From NCBI RefSeq assembly GCF_024448505.1, contig NZ_JAMOHV010000005.1, forward strand, positions 1-64,000: DNA of 64,000 nucleotides, written 5' to 3'. The notes beneath the pieces are model-generated. The model saw only the letters and a list, made by a program, of their open reading frames with translations. It made no database searches and had not been told where the DNA came from. This stretch comes from Stutzerimonas degradans (GTDB lineage: Bacteria; Pseudomonadota; Gammaproteobacteria; Pseudomonadales; Pseudomonadaceae). Shown in pieces: positions 1,681-8,320 of this stretch. Numbering within the stretch: the first letter of the stretch is position 1; each line of letters starts with the position of its first letter. A program made the translations under genes and the position numbers.

Positions 1681-4542
1681 TTACTGGCAGGCTTCGCAGT
1701 CGGGGTTATCGATACTGCACGCCTGCGGCACCGGAGCCGGCTTCGGCTCGGCACTCAGGCTTTCGTCGATCACCGAACTCACGGCATTCAGCTTGCCGGT
1801 GTTGATGGTGGACTTCTCGGTGCTGGTCGCGGCCAGGGCACGGAGGTAGTAGGTGGTCTTCAGACCGCGGTACCAGGCCATGCGGTAGGTCACGTCGAGC
1901 TTCTTGCCGCTGGCGCCGGCGATGTAGAGGTTCAGCGACTGGGCTTGGTCGATCCACTTCTGGCGGCGGCTGGCCGCCTCGACGATCCACTTGGTTTCCA
2001 CTTCGAAGGCGGTGGCGTACAGGTCCTTCAGGTCCTGCGGGATGCGCTCGATCTGCTGTACGGAGCCGTCGTAGTACTTGAGGTCGTTGACCATCACCGG
2101 GTCCCACAGGCCGCGGGCCTTGAGGTCGTGGACCAGGTACGGGTTGATCACGGTGAACTCGCCGGACAGGTTCGATTTGACGTACAGGTTCTGGTACGTC
2201 GGCTCGATGGACTGCGATACGCCAACGATGTTGGAGATGGTCGCGGTCGGCGCGATGGCCATGATGTTGGAGTTGCGGATGCCTTTCTTGACGCGCTCGC
2301 GCACCGGCGCCCAGTCCAGGGATTCAGTCAGGTCGACGTCGATGTACTTCTGGCCACGGGCCTCGATGAGGATCTGCTGGGAATCCAGCGGCAGGATACC
2401 TTTGGACCACAGCGAGCCTTCGAAGCTGGAGTAGGCGCCACGCTCGTCGGCCAGGTCACAGGAGGCCTGGATGGCGTAGTAGCTGATGGCTTCCATGGAC
2501 TTGTCGGCGAAGTCGATGGCGGCATCGGAGCCGTAGGCGATGTGCTGCAGGTACAGGGCATCCTGGAAGCCCATGATGCCCAGGCCCACCGGGCGGTGCT
2601 TGAAGTTGGCGTTCTGCGCCTGCGGCACGCTGTAGTAGTTGATGTCGATGACGTTATCGAGCATGCGCACAGCGGTGCGCACGGTGCGCTCCAGCTTGGC
2701 CGAATCCAGCTTGCCGTCGACGATGTGGTTGACCAGGTTGATCGAGCCCAGGTTGCAGACGGCGATCTCGTCCTTGTTGGTGTTCAGGGTGATCTCGGTG
2801 CACAGGTTGGAGCTGTGCACCACGCCGACGTGCTGCTGCGGGCTGCGCAGGTTGCACGGGTCCTTGAAGGTCAGCCACGGGTGGCCGGTCTCGAACAGCA
2901 TCGAGAGCATCTTGCGCCACAGGTCCTTGGCCGGCAGGGTCTTGAACAGCTTGATCTTGCCGTACTTGGTCAGCTCCTCGTAGTACTCGTAACGCTCCTC
3001 GAAGGCGCGGCCGGTGAGGTCGTGCAGGTCCGGTACGTCGGACGGGGAGAACAGGGTCCACTGGCCGTCGTCGAAGACGCGCTTCATGAACAGGTCCGGA
3101 ATCCAGTTGGCGGTGTTCATGTCGTGGGTACGGCGACGGTCGTCACCGGTGTTCTTGCGCAGCTCGAGGAATTCCTCGATGTCCAGGTGCCAGGTTTCCA
3201 GGTAGGCGCAGACGGCGCCCTTGCGCTTGCCGCCCTGGTTGACCGCCACGGCGGTGTCGTTGACCACTTTCAGGAACGGCACGACGCCCTGGGATTTGCC
3301 GTTGGTGCCCTTGATGTAGGCGCCCAGTGCGCGTACCGGGGTCCAGTCGTTGCCCAGGCCGCCGGCGAACTTGGACAGCAGCGCGTTATCGCGGATGGCG
3401 TCGTAGATGCCGCCCAGGTCGTCCGGCACGGTGGTCAGGTAGCAGGAGGACAGCTGCGGGCGCAGGGTGCCGGCGTTGAACAGGGTCGGCGTCGAGGCCA
3501 TGTAGTCGAAGGACGACAGCAGGTTGTAGAACTCGATGGCGCGCGCTTCTTTCTGCTCTTCCTCGATGGCCAGGCCCATGGCCACGCGCATGAAGAAGAT
3601 CTGCGGCAGTTCGAAGCGAATGTCGTTCTTGTGGATGAAGTAGCGGTCGTACAGGGTCTGCAGGCCGAGGTAAGTGAACTGCTGGTCACGCTCATGGTTG
3701 AGCGCGGCGCCCAGCTTGGCCAGGTCGTAGCTCTTGAGCTTGGAATCGAGCAGTTCGAACTCGACGCCTTTCTCGATGTAAGCCGGCAGGGCCTTGGCGT
3801 AAAGATCGGCCATCTCGTGGTGAGTGGCGGACTCTGCTACGCCGAGGAAGCCCAGGGCTTCGGCACGCAGGGTGTCCATCAGCAGACGCGCGGTGACCTG
3901 GCTGTAGTTCGGCTCGCGCTCGACCAGGGTGCGGGCAGTCATCACCAGCGCGGTGTTGACGTCCTTCTCGGCCACGCCGTCGTAGAGGTTCTTCAGGGTC
4001 TCGCGTTCGATCAGCGCGCCATCGACTTCGGCCAGGCCTTCGCAGGCCTCGGTGATGATGGTCCGCAGACGGCCCATATCCAGCGGCTGCTGGCTGCCAT
4101 CGGCGCGGGTGACGCGGATGCTCGGGTGCGGCTGGGCGATGTCGCTGCTGTCGTTGGCGCTCTTGCGCTTGGCAGCCTGGGCTTCGCGATAGATCACGTA
4201 GTCACGGGCGACCTTCTGCTCGCCGGCGCGCATCAGAGCCAGTTCGACCTGGTCCTGGATTTCCTCGATGTGGATGGTGCCACCCGAGGGCATGCGGCGA
4301 CGGAAGGTGGCGGTGACCTGCTCGGTCAGGCGTGCGACGGTGTCATGGATGCGCGAGGAAGCGGCAGCGTTACCGCCTTCCACTGCGAGAAAGGCCTTGG
4401 TGATGGCAACGGTGATCTTGTCGTCGGTGTAGGGGACGACGGTGCCGTTGCGCTTGATCACGCGCAGCTGGCCCGGGGCGGTGGCCGCCAGATCCGGTGC
4501 ATCGGCTGATAGCGGGTTCTCGCGAGTGGTTGGGTTCTGCAT
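1681..4542 (-). CDS. nrdA: Ribonucleoside-diphosphate reductase, alpha subunit (class Ia)
   Basis: This is the catalytic and allosteric subunit (953 aa) that makes dNDPs with NrdB. Two ATP-cone regulatory domains lie in tandem at about residues 25-127 and 142-228; a doubled cone is known from P. aeruginosa NrdA, and E. coli has only one. Catalytic features are the redox pair C367 and C596, the thiyl-radical C581 inside NLCTE with E583, and a C-terminal redox tail with cysteines at 942, 949 and 952 that is re-reduced by thioredoxin or glutaredoxin. The ATG at 4542 was chosen because GGAG lies about 8 nt upstream and the N-terminus then matches Pseudomonas NrdA; the in-frame extension to 4653 has no support. 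Expression is likely repressed by NrdR through the box at 4700. Confidence 0.96.
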   Translation of the reverse strand: MQNPTTRENPLSADAPDLAATAPGQLRVIKRNGTVVPYTDDKITVAITKAFLAVEGGNAAASSRIHDTVARLTEQVTATFRRRMPSGGTIHIEEIQDQVELALMRAGEQKVARDYVIYREAQAAKRKSANDSSDIAQPHPSIRVTRADGSQQPLDMGRLRTIITEACEGLAEVDGALIERETLKNLYDGVAEKDVNTALVMTARTLVEREPNYSQVTARLLMDTLRAEALGFLGVAESATHHEMADLYAKALPAYIEKGVEFELLDSKLKSYDLAKLGAALNHERDQQFTYLGLQTLYDRYFIHKNDIRFELPQIFFMRVAMGLAIEEEQKEARAIEFYNLLSSFDYMASTPTLFNAGTLRPQLSSCYLTTVPDDLGGIYDAIRDNALLSKFAGGLGNDWTPVRALGAYIKGTNGKSQGVVPFLKVVNDTAVAVNQGGKRKGAVCAYLETWHLDIEEFLELRKNTGDDRRRTHDMNTANWIPDLFMKRVFDDGQWTLFSPSDVPDLHDLTGRAFEERYEYYEELTKYGKIKLFKTLPAKDLWRKMLSMLFETGHPWLTFKDPCNLRSPQQHVGVVHSSNLCTEITLNTNKDEIAVCNLGSINLVNHIVDGKLDSAKLERTVRTAVRMLDNVIDINYYSVPQAQNANFKHRPVGLGIMGFQDALYLQHIAYGSDAAIDFADKSMEAISYYAIQASCDLADERGAYSSFEGSLWSKGILPLDSQQILIEARGQKYIDVDLTESLDWAPVRERVKKGIRNSNIMAIAPTATISNIVGVSQSIEPTYQNLYVKSNLSGEFTVINPYLVHDLKARGLWDPVMVNDLKYYDGSVQQIERIPQDLKDLYATAFEVETKWIVEAASRRQKWIDQAQSLNLYIAGASGKKLDVTYRMAWYRGLKTTYYLRALAATSTEKSTINTGKLNAVSSVIDESLSAEPKPAPVPQACSIDNPDCEACQ

Positions 4543-4699
4543 GGGGGCTCCGGGTCTCTCTTGGTCGCGGTAATGGGGCTGGTTGGGCTTGTGCCCGCAA
4601 GGTTGGTTCGGGTCGAGCGTTGCTGTTCGGTTGGCGCCAATGACGTCGGTCAAGGGCGCAAGAATGTCGGGAAGAATAGCTTCGTGAAAAACACTGTCA

Positions 4700-4715
4700 A
4701 CACAATATCTAGTGT
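4700..4715. promoter_or_regulatory. NrdR box upstream of nrdA
   Basis: ACACAATATCTAGTGT matches the known NrdR consensus acaCwAtATaTwGtgt at 15 of 16 positions. It lies 157 bp upstream of the nrdA ATG, where NrdR would repress nrdAB when dATP is plentiful. No clear partner box lies at the usual spacing of about 31 bp. Confidence 0.85.
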
Positions 4716-4975
4716 CTGTTGATCTGGTCGGTACTACCGGTGCGAGCGGTCGGGGATGGCAGGCTGTCGCGCAGAGCCTGGCATCTCAGCGGCGCATGCG
4801 GCTCTGCTCAAGCGCCCGTTGGCGAGTTGCAGGCCGAAGGAAGGTGACAAGTGGCGTCGCCAAGCGATTTGTGTCTCTGGTTGAGTTAAACCCCAAGATA
4901 TGGGGTTCTGGCTGCGAGGGGGCGACACCTTAATGCCGCTGGCGCGCCTTTGCAACCGGCCTTCTCTGAGCAAGC

Positions 4976-4984
4976 TGTGGATAA
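4976..4984 (-). promoter_or_regulatory. DnaA box upstream of nrdA
   Basis: TGTGGATAA is the exact complement of the high-affinity DnaA box TTATCCACA. DnaA boxes regulate nrdAB in E. coli, so a similar link between replication initiation and dNTP supply is plausible. A single 9-mer can occur by chance. Confidence 0.5.
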
Positions 4985-5112
4985 GATGTGGGTGTTTTGT
5001 GGGTTAAAAAGCACTCCGCCAGGCAAACCCCCGTGCCATCGAAGCTAGCCCCGGAGGCGGAAAAAAGACGGGTCGACCGCGCCACTCGTCGCGCCGACGC
5101 GAAAAGCGGCCA

Positions 5113-5128
5113 TCACTATATGTTGTGT
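5113..5128. promoter_or_regulatory. Second NrdR-like box near the response regulator promoter
   Basis: TCACTATATGTTGTGT matches the NrdR consensus at 14 of 16 positions. It is 96 bp upstream of the response regulator ATG and 413 bp from the first box. It may serve a distal nrdA promoter, or it may put the two-component operon under NrdR control. Confidence 0.6.
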
Positions 5129-5223
5129 TTGTGATAGGCGGGTTCTGCAGGCTCTTTCCCCGACGCGGTTGGGTACAATGCGCCGGCGTTCGGATCGGTC
5201 TTGCAGTGTCGGCGGAGGCATCA

Positions 5224-5943
5224 ATGGAGCAGGAAACGTGGCGAATCCTCATCGTCGAGGATGATCGGCGGCTGGCGGAGTTGACTCAGGAATACCTGCA
5301 GGGCGATGGCGCGTTCGAGGTGTCCATCGAGGCCGATGGCGCGCGCGCGGTCGAGCGCATCGTCAGCGAGCGTCCCGATCTGGTGGTGCTCGACCTGATG
5401 CTGCCCGGCGAGGACGGCATGTCCATCTGCCGGCGCGCGCGTGAACAGTATGACGGGCCGATTCTCATGCTCACCGCACGGGCCGATGACCTGGACCAGG
5501 TGCTGGGCCTGGAAACCGGCGCCGACGACTATGTCTGCAAGCCGGTGCGCCCGCGCCTGTTGCTGGCGCGCATCCGCGCGTTGCTGCGGCGGCGCGAAAC
5601 GCCGGAAGCGGCGGGCAGCGCCAAGCGCCTGCAGTTCGGCCCGCTGGTGGTCGACAGCGCGTTGCGCGAGGCCTGGCTGCGTGAAAAGCAGATCGAGCTG
5701 ACCGGCGCCGAATTCGATCTGCTCTGGCTGCTGACCTCCAACGCCGGCCGCATCCTCTCGCGCGAGGAAATCTTCGCTCAGCTGCGCGGCATCGAATACG
5801 ACGGCCAGGACCGCTCCATCGACGTGCGCATCTCCCGCATCCGGCCGAAGATCGGTGACGACCCGGAGCATCCGCGCCTGATCAAGACCGTGCGCGGCAA
5901 GGGCTACCTGTTCGTCTCCGAAGCCGCCGAGGCGCTGGCCTGA
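5224..5943 (+). CDS. RstA-like OmpR-family response regulator
   Basis: This 239-aa DNA-binding response regulator has a receiver domain at about 6-120 with acidic pocket E12/D13/D14, phospho-acceptor D57 (LDLMLPG), T84 and K107. A winged-helix effector at about 138-233 ends in the usual GKGYLFV hairpin. The effector resembles E. coli RstA most closely, notably around RSIDVRISRIR. The ATG at 5224 follows GGAGG by 5 nt; a longer in-frame start at 5125 has no ribosome binding site. It is 28 bp ahead of its sensor kinase gene, so the pair is one operon. The signal it senses is not evident. Its position next to nrdA and divergent from it is like PA1157 of P. aeruginosa. Confidence 0.9.
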   Translation: MEQETWRILIVEDDRRLAELTQEYLQGDGAFEVSIEADGARAVERIVSERPDLVVLDLMLPGEDGMSICRRAREQYDGPILMLTARADDLDQVLGLETGADDYVCKPVRPRLLLARIRALLRRRETPEAAGSAKRLQFGPLVVDSALREAWLREKQIELTGAEFDLLWLLTSNAGRILSREEIFAQLRGIEYDGQDRSIDVRISRIRPKIGDDPEHPRLIKTVRGKGYLFVSEAAEALA

Positions 5944-5971
5944 CGTGCCGCGCCCGCAGAGCGCTGTCTGA

Positions 5972-7588
5972 ATGAATTCGATCTTCCTGCGCATCTATGG
6001 CGGCGTGCTGGCGGTGCTGGTGCTGGTGGCGCTGCTGGGTGCCGGGGGCCTGCAGCTGCTCAACGAGGTGCGTGCCGATGCGCACCGCGAGCGTCTGGCC
6101 GGCGGCACTTTCCGTTTGATGGCGCACAACATGAGCAGCATGACCCCGGTTGAGCGGCGCCAGGCGGCCAACCTGTGGGGGCGCCTGCTGGGCATTCCGC
6201 TGCGGGTGCGCACGCTGGACGACGTCGATCTCGAAGACCGTCTGGAAACCCGCTTGCTGCGCGGTCAGGTGCTGGTCGAACAGCTGCGCCCGCAGAGCAC
6301 CACGGTGTTCAGCCTGGTCAGCGCCCGCGACGGGCTGGTACTCACCGGCGAGGTCGAGCAGGTCAGCGAGCAGCTGGCACGGGCGACCATCTACCTGCTG
6401 ATCGACGAGCTGATCCGCTATCCCGAGAGCGAGCAGCCGCGGCATCTGGCCGAACTCAAGGAAGCGCGCGGCTTCGGCTATCCGCTGCAACTGCTGACGC
6501 GCGACAGTGCCAACCTCGACGACGATCAGCGCCGGCGCCTCGACGAGGGCGACACGGTGATGGCGCTGGACCAGGGCGGCGGCGCCATCCGCGTGTTCGC
6601 CGCCGTCGCCGGTACTTCGTGGATCATGCAGCTCGGCCCGCTGTATCCGCTGGATGCCTATCCGCCGCATCTGCTGCTGCTGATCGGCCTGCTCGGTCTG
6701 TCGCTGATCGGCCTGACCGTTTACCTGCTGGTGCGTCAGCTGGAGCAGCGCCTCAGCGTGCTGGAGGCGGCGGCCACGCGCATCGCCAGCGGCAACCTGA
6801 GCGCGCATGTGCCCGATGCCGGCAGCGATTCGGTGGGGCGTCTGGCGGCAGCGTTCAACCTCATGGCCAGGCAGCTGCAGCGCCTGCTGGCGGTACAGCG
6901 CGAGATGGTCAGCGCGGTGGCGCATGAACTGCGCACGCCGGTGGCGCGCCTGCGCTTCGGCCTGGAGATGAGCGCCGACGCGCAGAACGACGAGGCGCGG
7001 CGCAAGCATCTGGCGGGTATGGATGCCGATATCGACGATCTCGACCGGCTGGTGGACGAGATGCTGGTGTACACCCGCCTGGAGCAGGGACTGCCGACGC
7101 TGAAGTTCGCGCCGGTGGACCTGGAGGCGCTGGTCGATCAGGTCATCGGCGAGCTGGCGCCGCTGCGACCGACGATTCGCATCGAGCGTGGCCGTTGCGT
7201 GCCGGCGGCGGACGGCAGCAGCCGCGCCGACGCCGAGCTGCAATACCTGCGCCGTGCGCTGAGCAATCTGATCAGCAACGCGGCCCGCCATGCCGAAACG
7301 CAGGTGCGGGTGAGCTACGCCTTCGACGCCGGGCAGGTCTGGCTGCGCGTCGAGGACGACGGCCCCGGCGTGCCGGAGGCGGACTGGGAGCGCGTGTTCA
7401 CTCCCTTCCTGCGCCTGGACGACAGCCGTACGCGGGCTTCCGGCGGGCATGGGCTGGGGCTTTCCATCGTGCGGCGGATCATCTACTGGCACGGCGGCCG
7501 CGCGCTGATCGGCCGCAGCGAACTGGGTGGTGCCTGTTTCAGCCTGCGCTGGCCCAGTCGCCACCCGCCGCGGGTGGGCGAGGCCTGA
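5972..7588 (+). CDS. RstB-like sensor histidine kinase
   Basis: This is an inner-membrane histidine kinase (538 aa), the partner of the upstream regulator. Membrane segments lie at about 8-30 and 233-255 and enclose a periplasmic sensor of about 200 residues. A HAMP domain follows at about 256-308. The dimerisation box AHELRTP carries phospho-acceptor H318. The ATP-binding domain shows an N box (LSNLISNAARHA), the DDGPGVP motif and the GGHGLGLSIV lid. Architecture and length fit the RstB family. The periplasmic part has no metal or ligand motif that I can recognise, so the stimulus remains unknown. The gene ends 9 bp from the convergent pcpS gene. Confidence 0.9.
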   Translation: MNSIFLRIYGGVLAVLVLVALLGAGGLQLLNEVRADAHRERLAGGTFRLMAHNMSSMTPVERRQAANLWGRLLGIPLRVRTLDDVDLEDRLETRLLRGQVLVEQLRPQSTTVFSLVSARDGLVLTGEVEQVSEQLARATIYLLIDELIRYPESEQPRHLAELKEARGFGYPLQLLTRDSANLDDDQRRRLDEGDTVMALDQGGGAIRVFAAVAGTSWIMQLGPLYPLDAYPPHLLLLIGLLGLSLIGLTVYLLVRQLEQRLSVLEAAATRIASGNLSAHVPDAGSDSVGRLAAAFNLMARQLQRLLAVQREMVSAVAHELRTPVARLRFGLEMSADAQNDEARRKHLAGMDADIDDLDRLVDEMLVYTRLEQGLPTLKFAPVDLEALVDQVIGELAPLRPTIRIERGRCVPAADGSSRADAELQYLRRALSNLISNAARHAETQVRVSYAFDAGQVWLRVEDDGPGVPEADWERVFTPFLRLDDSRTRASGGHGLGLSIVRRIIYWHGGRALIGRSELGGACFSLRWPSRHPPRVGEA

Positions 7589-7597
7589 GCGCGTCGG

Positions 7598-8320
7598 TCA
7601 GGCGGGAATGCTCACCAGCGTCAGCAGATGGTCGTCGAACGCACTGAACTGGCCTTCCAGCTCCGCGCCGTGGCGCCATTGCGACGACAGTTCGGTGAGC
7701 AGACGCAGGCGCGCGAAGCCGCTGGCGTCGCAGGCCACCAGTTCGGCGTCTTGGAAATAGAAGCGCCGCTTGACTAGCGGATAGAGCGCCTTGAACAGGC
7801 TTTCCTTGAGCGAGAACGTCAGCGTCACCCGCTGCGCGCGCTGCACGGCGGGCAGCGCGGCGTAGCCTTGCAACTCGTCTGCGGTGAGGATCTCGCTCGC
7901 CAGCCGGTCGGCCCGCTCGGGCTCCAGCTGCTGCTCGATATCCAGCCCCAGGCCACGCCAGGCCTGCTGGTGCGCGACCACCACGCCGGCCCAGCCGGCA
8001 CCGTGGGTGATCGAGCCGACCACACCGGCGGGCCAGCATGGCGAGCGATCGGCCGCAACCGTCGGCACCGCTGGCGCGCCGGTCAACCGCAGCAGTGCCT
8101 GACGGGCGCACAGCCGGCCGGCGAGGAATTCCGCCTGGCGCTTGCTCACGCCTCGCGGTGTCGGGATGCCCCAACGCGGAAAATCTTCCGGATCGAGCAA
8201 CGCCGGATCGAAGCGCGTGCTCAGCAGATGCACGCCGGCCAACGCGCGCGGCAGCGGCCAGCGGTCATCCAGGGCGGTGCAGCAGCGGGGCAGGGGTGGG
8301 TGCGCGTTCATGCCGCGCAT
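7598..8320 (-). CDS. pcpS: 4'-phosphopantetheinyl transferase (PcpS/EntD type)
   Basis: This enzyme moves the phosphopantetheine arm of CoA to carrier proteins of fatty acid and siderophore synthesis (240 aa). Family motifs are SITH, the Mg-binding GLDIE, and the C-terminal FSLKESLFKAL. In Pseudomonas one such enzyme, PcpS, serves both primary and secondary metabolism, and the length and layout fit it. Two starts are possible: the ATG at 8320, with GAGG 4 nt upstream, or the ATG three codons later at 8311; the choice affects only three residues. The gene is monocistronic and convergent with the histidine kinase. Confidence 0.88.
   Translation of the reverse strand: MRGMNAHPPLPRCCTALDDRWPLPRALAGVHLLSTRFDPALLDPEDFPRWGIPTPRGVSKRQAEFLAGRLCARQALLRLTGAPAVPTVAADRSPCWPAGVVGSITHGAGWAGVVVAHQQAWRGLGLDIEQQLEPERADRLASEILTADELQGYAALPAVQRAQRVTLTFSLKESLFKALYPLVKRRFYFQDAELVACDASGFARLRLLTELSSQWRHGAELEGQFSAFDDHLLTLVSIPA

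Follow-up and report, generated by a model that had tools for sequence, protein, structure and literature searches.

Two boxes of the NrdR type lie 413 bp apart (start to start) upstream of the ribonucleotide reductase gene nrdA of Stutzerimonas degradans, and the question they raise is which gene they control and by what means boxes so far apart could act. NrdR is a widespread bacterial dNTP sensor that has been discussed as a drug target, and its described operator is a single pair of boxes separated by three or four helical turns. The window referred to below is the whole stretch of DNA analysed, 64,000 nucleotides in length, and all positions are those of the window.

The nrdA locus and its two outlying NrdR boxes

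The large subunit of the class Ia ribonucleotide reductase is encoded by nrdA at 1681..4542 on the reverse strand (open reading frame list; ATG at 4542), and the N-terminus kept in relatives begins at 4542. The nrdB gene (136-1455) is situated downstream of nrdA on the same strand. Box P (ACACAATATCTAGTGT, 4700..4715) lies in the predicted nrdA leader with its start 158 bp from the nrdA ATG, and box D (TCACTATATGTTGTGT, 5113..5128) lies upstream of the nrdA promoter, 95 bp from the ATG (5224) of a response regulator gene and 45 bp from the candidate -10 of that gene. Between them the reverse strand carries a perfect 9-mer DnaA box, TTATCCACA (4976..4984). The first-pass annotation had described two NrdR boxes at this separation with a DnaA box between them, one near nrdA and the other near the regulator start, and this arrangement is confirmed; a recount against the consensus acaCwAtATaTwGtgt also returns its figures of 15/16 matches for P and 14/16 for D. 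Both boxes are dyads conserved across Pseudomonadaceae.

A scan of the window with the pattern ACACWAYATMTWGTGT, allowing up to 3 mismatches, gives 5 strand-hits at 3 sites against 0.50 expected, the maximum in 100 shuffles being 3 hits. Searching the genome of the organism (4,006,942 bases) with ACACWANATMTWGTGT at up to 2 mismatches returns 3 sites, namely P, D and one on contig C12. The strand counts are 2+3 (forward+reverse) compared with 2+1 for the reversed pattern, so that the number of hits alone is near background; chance does not account for the location of two of the three sites beside nrdA, at a separation of 413 bp, or for the conservation of both. The same genome carries nrdR (TIGR00244, 238.5 bits). 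An Rfam search of positions 4000-6000 gave a single match with an E-value of 0.88, far under the gathering score, which is taken as chance.

Genome-wide enrichment of NrdR boxes was not seen in 13 genomes searched with MCACWANATNTWGTGK at up to one mismatch, the forward pattern having 1-6 hits and the reversed pattern 7-18. As the reversed control is commoner than the loose pattern itself, identification of the motif relies on place and conservation. P and D are assigned to NrdR by inference from the motif, the homology of the promoter and the published control of nrdA in Pseudomonas aeruginosa. At two further loci (L244, L245) the same motif occurs in pairs, with boxes 32 and 31 bp apart, next to an RNR-type gene; this gene, with its ATP-cone-like start, is read as nrdD.

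A core NrdR site on the predicted nrdA promoter

Between P and D there is a core NrdR site (4859-4938) that had been missed by the first-pass annotation. It is comprised of box M (CCCCAAGATATGGGGT, 4891..4906), box M' (CGACACCTTAATGCCG, 4923..4938) at 16 bp from M on one side, and a degenerate box M'' (GCCAAGCGATTTGTGT, 4859..4874) at 16 bp from M on the other, which are equivalent to boxes 1, 0 and 2 respectively of E. coli nrdAB. The predicted main nrdA promoter (4927..4955, reverse strand) has a -35 TTGCAA (4955-4950), a 17 bp spacer and a -10 TAAGGT (4932-4927), the -10 being TATCTT in many relatives and in E. coli. It is located between P and D, about 380 bp from the ATG, and its -10 is overlapped by M'. 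The main nrdA start is accordingly predicted near 4920, with a putative leader of about 380 nt. In P. aeruginosa each RNR promoter has been described as carrying two NrdR boxes, one of them overlapping the -10 (PMC4409342, available part), and M' fits that one.

The core organisation is widely kept. Score rules were used to place the boxes, M and M' included. The spacer between M and M' is 15 or 16 bp in 142 of the 163 distinct loci defined below, with M' misplaced by the rule in some of the 21 loci lacking this spacer; M and M' therefore have the spacing of a canonical NrdR operator (a pair with a spacer of 15-17 or about 25 bp), the window having a spacer of 16 bp. M' reads ATACAAGATAATGCGC in the P. 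aeruginosa-type group. The family profile around M has M'' at -32 (z = 3.3) and M' at +31 (z = 3.1). With M', M and M'' forming an E. coli-like core, P and D appear as additions about 200 bp to either side.

One could suppose that P and D each belong to a usual local pair whose second box, about 31 bp off, is weak, and that the distances between pairs mean nothing. A weak candidate partner of P (GTACTACCGGTGCGAG, 15-bp spacer, 4731..4746), like E. coli nrdAB box 2, is present in the window, where GTACTACCGGTG resembles that box, and the family profile around P has a weak partner at +32 (z = 3.4). The profile around D has no partner signal at -32, -31, +31 or +32. With only a weak partner for P and none for D, neither box constitutes a canonical NrdR operator. 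Partner scores are moreover far below those of the boxes, and local pairs would leave unexplained both the phasing over about 125-245 bp and the joint gain and loss of P and D described in the following sections. We regard this explanation as unlikely.

A possible second nrdA promoter beside P is predicted in the window (4673..4700, reverse strand: TTGACA at 4700-4695, 16 bp, TATTCT at 4678-4673). By eye this element (TTGACA, 16 bp, TATTCT or TATCCT) is seen in part of the genus only, and such a proximal promoter would give P a local role in some loci of the genus.

Distribution across Pseudomonadaceae

The nrdA gene was found in 54 of the 56 genus genomes searched, and an alignment of these 54 loci (53 relatives and the window) contains conserved blocks between P and D. 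Both outlying boxes reach 13/16 matches or better in all 54, and the exact DnaA box occurs in 53. The survey was extended to 194 loci by adding to the genus set 60 family loci, taken from 107 matched family genomes outside the genus, and 80 named relatives out of at least 575; these sets overlap in species. The exact DnaA 9-mer, a putative DnaA-binding site beside the nrdA promoter, occurs in 181 of the 194 loci. The 13 loci without the 9-mer were dropped, and the remaining 181 contain the 163 distinct loci used for the statistics.

Scored by both strength and place, P and D occur together in 114 of these 163 loci, neither occurs in 45, and in 4 D is present and P is weak. No locus has P at the right place without D (0/163), two loci having a P-like score at a wrong place. 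Shuffled sequence reaches the score threshold in 1.2% of cases for P and 0.12% for D. Judged by their names, the 45 loci without P and D come mainly from species of the P. fluorescens and P. putida types; four of them belong to group g6 and one to P. indoloxydans. The losses being few and clade-wide, the co-occurrence of P and D amounts to a small number of events, and the array of P and D is evidently dispensable in the lineages of these 45 loci. M and M' at 15/16 bp are retained in 41 of them, the exceptions being the four g6 loci.

P. aeruginosa PA7 (L087/L156) has the P-M-DnaA-D layout. Beside core box M of PA7 (L087) lies GCCGTTCGTTC, which we take to resemble an AlgR box.

Joint loss of nrdR and its boxes was considered as a test and set aside, since nrdR is present in 148/148 family genomes and offers no contrast. 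Some side observations were made on two groups. In part of g6 (L075, L076, L077, L080) the DnaA box is kept, neither P nor D is present and M is unclear; nrdR is nonetheless found in all 148 family genomes. The six loci of g5 (L069-L074) have no exact DnaA 9-mer upstream of nrdA and were left out of the statistics; they retain core-type boxes and one or two far boxes on shorter arms, with M-D distances, measured by hand, of about 151/164/174/186 bp.

Box D and the neighbouring response regulator

The gene next to D on the forward strand (5224..5943) encodes a response regulator of the OmpR family, the nearest NCBIfam model being RstA (248.5 bits, below the cut-off of 330). It is followed by a sensor kinase (5972..7588, forward strand) nearest to RstB (294.6 bits, below the cut-off of 478), and by a phosphopantetheinyl transferase-like gene (7598-8320). 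Regulator and kinase are taken as neighbours that lie outside the element. A candidate -10 (TACAAT) of the regulator gene is predicted at 5174..5179 on the forward strand.

The position of D invites the reading that it is the operator of this RstA/RstB-like operon, which would then belong to the NrdR regulon, one of two readings given in the first-pass annotation. The distances of 95 bp to the regulator ATG and 45 bp to the candidate -10 in the window would suit an operator, and the interval from D to the regulator start, with 25 changes on the tree described below, is borderline for phase (V-test p = 0.055). Against this, D is present and the regulator absent in 25 of 118 loci, and D and P are absent and the regulator present in 34 of the 45 distinct loci lacking the boxes, both counts applying within the fetched 1.3-1.7 kb. 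The loci with D and no regulator include all those of g10 (7/7), g17 (3/3) and g14 (1/1), 3/4 of g11, 2/6 of g6 and 2/3 of those tabulated for g13, the third g13 locus (L108) having a box at the place of D and no exact DnaA box. From one or two translations read per group, the gene beside D there encodes a phosphopantetheinyl transferase-like protein, a transporter, RecJ or another product. A precedent, though no more than that, comes from P. aeruginosa, where the AlgR box facing PA1157 acts on nrdAB and the PA1157 promoter ignored AlgR (PMC5738425, in the part available). D thus belongs to nrdA, and a role as regulator operator is improbable; the proposal that the operon is in the NrdR regulon is not borne out by the counts. 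A side effect of D on the regulator is possible.

Helical phasing of the outlying boxes with the core

In Pseudomonadaceae the lengths of the intervals fall into clusters. P-M spacings are 136/156/160/169-171/179-183/188-193/203 bp and M-D spacings 177-179/188-191/200-202/208-213/221-227/233/245 bp; those from M to the DnaA box are 72-76/84-86 bp, and those from the DnaA box to D 93/107/115-118/124-129/136-141/148-151/160 bp. At a period of 11 bp the mean resultant length (R) is 0.82 for P-M (n=114), 0.68 for M-D (n=118), 0.90 for M-DnaA (n=155) and 0.78 for DnaA-D (n=118), compared with 0.05 and 0.09 for the control intervals from the nrdA start to P and to M. Counting each distinct length once, the Rayleigh test gives p values of 0.0013 (P-M), 0.0014 (M-D), 0.0082 (M-DnaA) and 7e-5 (DnaA-D), and 0.61 and 0.42 for the controls to P and to M. 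The sequence between the DnaA box and D is otherwise poorly conserved.

The direct phasing of P with D is weak (R 0.42 at 11 bp; Rayleigh p 0.023), a result that fixation of each arm to the core would predict. Direct bridging of P and D as the sole constraint was rejected, P-D being less phased than P-M and M-D.

The changes in length were also inferred on a tree of 82 of the 114 loci, all bearing the regulator (a quick tree of about 450 bases), and changes of 4-60 bp were submitted to the V-test at 10.5 bp. The ten M-D changes (-8,-10,-10,10,-10,11,-11,20,-21,22) lie within 2 bp of a whole turn in nine cases (p 7.7e-5). For DnaA-D there are 12 changes (p 6e-5), for P-M 5 (p 0.011), for P-DnaA 7 (p 0.014) and for P-D 14, of which 9 are within 2 bp of a turn (p 0.0038). 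The controls have 42 changes from the nrdA start to P (p 1) and 40 to M (p 0.98). The intervals share changes, so the phase tests on P-M, M-D, DnaA-D and the others are not independent of one another.

Steps of 11 bp could in principle arise as a mutational accident, by gain and loss of 10-11-bp units without selection, and several changes in the genus are indeed single alignment gaps of 10-11 bp. The changes between the nrdA start and P or M, with p values close to 1, are of all sizes, and the phased lengths occur in several intervals of differing sequence and again in a second family. An origin of this kind is very improbable.

The same layout in a second family

A second family (f43) shares the P-M-D layout; its arms differ in length from those of Pseudomonadaceae and also vary in steps of about 11 bp. 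Of 46 genomes searched from this family 42 have nrdA, giving 44 entries with two genomes counted twice; M is found in 42 entries, D in 42 and P in 41, the exceptions including an incomplete stretch (L263) and two entries that fail the M rule (L270, L292). P-M lengths cluster at 124/133-136/144-146/156/170-171/216/226 bp and M-D lengths at 136/145-146/156-158/168/202-203/224/247 bp. With each length taken once, the phase agrees with that of Pseudomonadaceae at 11.0 bp (P-M p 0.017, M-D p 6.3e-5), and at 10.5 bp no agreement is seen (P-M 0.98, M-D 0.35). A period of 10.5 bp for both families together was therefore rejected, the f43 phase fitting only near 11, and the data themselves thus had a part in the choice of about 11 bp as the period. 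On a tree of nrdA from 28 f43 loci there are only 3 changes of 4 bp or more per arm (P-M p 0.28, M-D p 0.02 at 11 bp), which are too few to stand alone. The two arm lengths rise together (r = 0.86, 64 distinct pairs), partly because the two families differ.

Four f43 loci without an exact DnaA box retain P, M and D, and this bears on a further explanation, in which DnaA or another factor builds the phased P-M-D complex and NrdR acts only at the core. As this explanation would have it, phasing is tightest for M-DnaA (R 0.90) and tighter for DnaA-D than for M-D (0.78 vs 0.68 at 11 bp). P and D are however dyads of the NrdR-box type, and loci without the exact DnaA box, namely the four of f43 and, by eye, those of g5, keep phased-looking P, M and D. 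No IHF consensus occurs in either arm among the 114 loci, a weak test with 0.1 expected per arm. We consider a complex built by another protein improbable.

A wider look at the order covered 30 loci, of which four are f43 and the other 26 were left out of the phase test. Most of these 26 have a core-type site, a DnaA box or nothing, and a few (L226, L229, L237, L299) have two or more boxes.

A proposed long-range operator array for nrdA

P-M and M-D are phased in two families, with unphased controls from the nrdA start in Pseudomonadaceae, so that spacing by helix face, as expected of a looping array, is observed; a main operator with distant auxiliary ones is likewise present in the form of the core with P and D. 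The retention of three spaced NrdR sites on one face of the helix across many Pseudomonas relatives suggests looping. We consider it probable that the locus carries a long-range operator array for nrdA, in which NrdR at P and D joins NrdR at the core, the DNA loops and nrdA is repressed. The other reading of the first-pass annotation, a distal nrdA promoter with looping, is supported by this anatomy and by the phasing, the predicted promoter lying between the two boxes and both boxes being in helical phase with it.

In the proposed mechanism, NrdR loaded with dATP and ATP would bind M/M' (and M''), which overlap the predicted main promoter of nrdA. From about 200 bp on either side, NrdR bound to P in the leader and to D upstream, both strong single boxes, would join the core complex, and the intervening DNA would be thrown into loops. 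As a result nrdA may be shut off more tightly, or in a more switch-like manner, under an ample supply of dNTPs. As at E. coli nrdAB, the DnaA box beside the promoter would be a separate input.

NrdR with dATP and ATP has been described as a tetramer with two DNA-binding units, the octamer being two tetramers (PMC9110341, PMC12051234, PMC12176259), and its binding as dependent on helix phase over spacers of 12-27 bp (PMC9110341, PMC12051234). According to the available part of PMC12051234 it requires a pair of boxes, spaced by 15-17 or about 26 bp, and is unable to bind a single box. Single boxes should thus not hold NrdR alone, but P and D are phased with a core that does, and in this they look like auxiliary operators. 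Perhaps P and D dock onto the core through the known octamer. The published octamer must dissociate to bind DNA (PMC9110341, as available), which disfavours the simplest form of an octamer bridge. In its broader form the proposal is that the NrdR of Pseudomonadales is a looping repressor, with boxes about 125-245 bp to either side docking onto the core in a three-site, dATP-controlled closed structure that includes the DnaA box; we lean towards this, somewhat less firmly.

If true, this would be long-range action by a regulator so far described as binding box pairs within about 60 bp. The conserved three-site phased layout in two families, including P. aeruginosa, would make the nrdA operator about 270-450 bp long there, and would suggest what isolated boxes, and perhaps the octamer of NrdR, may do.

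Comparison with known systems

The core region resembles that of E. coli nrdAB. In MG1655 the DnaA box TTATCCACA, the -35 TTGCAA, a spacer of 17 bp and the -10 TATCTT occur in the same order, and NrdR boxes 0, 1 and 2 are about 31-32 bp apart. The start of box 1 is 69 bp from the DnaA box, the same measure being about 67 or 78 in Pseudomonadaceae. These three boxes have been described and DnaA is listed as binding the E. coli promoter (PMC12176259, available part) and as activating it (PMC4009431, available part). E. coli differs in that no site outside the core scores above 1.5 by the box matrix in 1301 bp around the promoter; by this matrix box 1 of MG1655 scores 13.2, P of the window 23.2 and D 21.4. 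The E. coli nrdAB leader is also shorter than the one of about 380 nt predicted in the window. The array of P and D, which the E. coli stretch tested and many Pseudomonas lack, is thus an added layer.

More than one NrdR site upstream of a single operon is also found at nrdAB of Listeria monocytogenes (PMC12051234). The sites there are two complete 15/16-bp pairs, and not single boxes about 200 bp around a core, and the role of the distal pair is called unclear by the authors in the available part of that paper. The lac loops share with the present proposal the use of separated operators whose spacing matters by helix face, with a repeat of about 11 bp in vivo, and the best spacings for repression in vivo are near 133 and 144 bp (PMC8501960, available part). 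The lac repressor, however, is of a family unrelated to NrdR, which senses dNTPs.

The nrdA-PA1157 intergenic region of P. aeruginosa has the same genes as the window. Expression of nrdA changes in PAO1 without nrdR (PMC4409342), and an AlgR box with DNA bending has been reported in this region of PAO1 (PMC5738425). No long-range array or phasing is described for it in the available parts of these papers, and the published boxes may include P or D. A literature search of partial coverage, supplements excluded, returned no report of NrdR looping at nrdA.

Other NrdR-like boxes

A strong isolated NrdR-like box, ACACTACATATTGTGT, is found in PA7 (L247, C1:367690) near a gene resembling the zinc-finger activator Ogr/Delta of phages. 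It is perhaps used by a prophage to follow the dNTP signal of the host, or is due to chance.

Another NrdR-like box, CCACTATATATAGCGG, stands singly in 12 of the 13 family genomes searched (unchanged in 10, with one letter changed in 2), and lies upstream of topA in the four loci read (L246, L248, L249, L250). The strict conservation of a lone box at topA conflicts with the claim that one box is not enough for NrdR. The genome of the window has its own copy of this type of box, at G000:C9:52817-52832 (L303).
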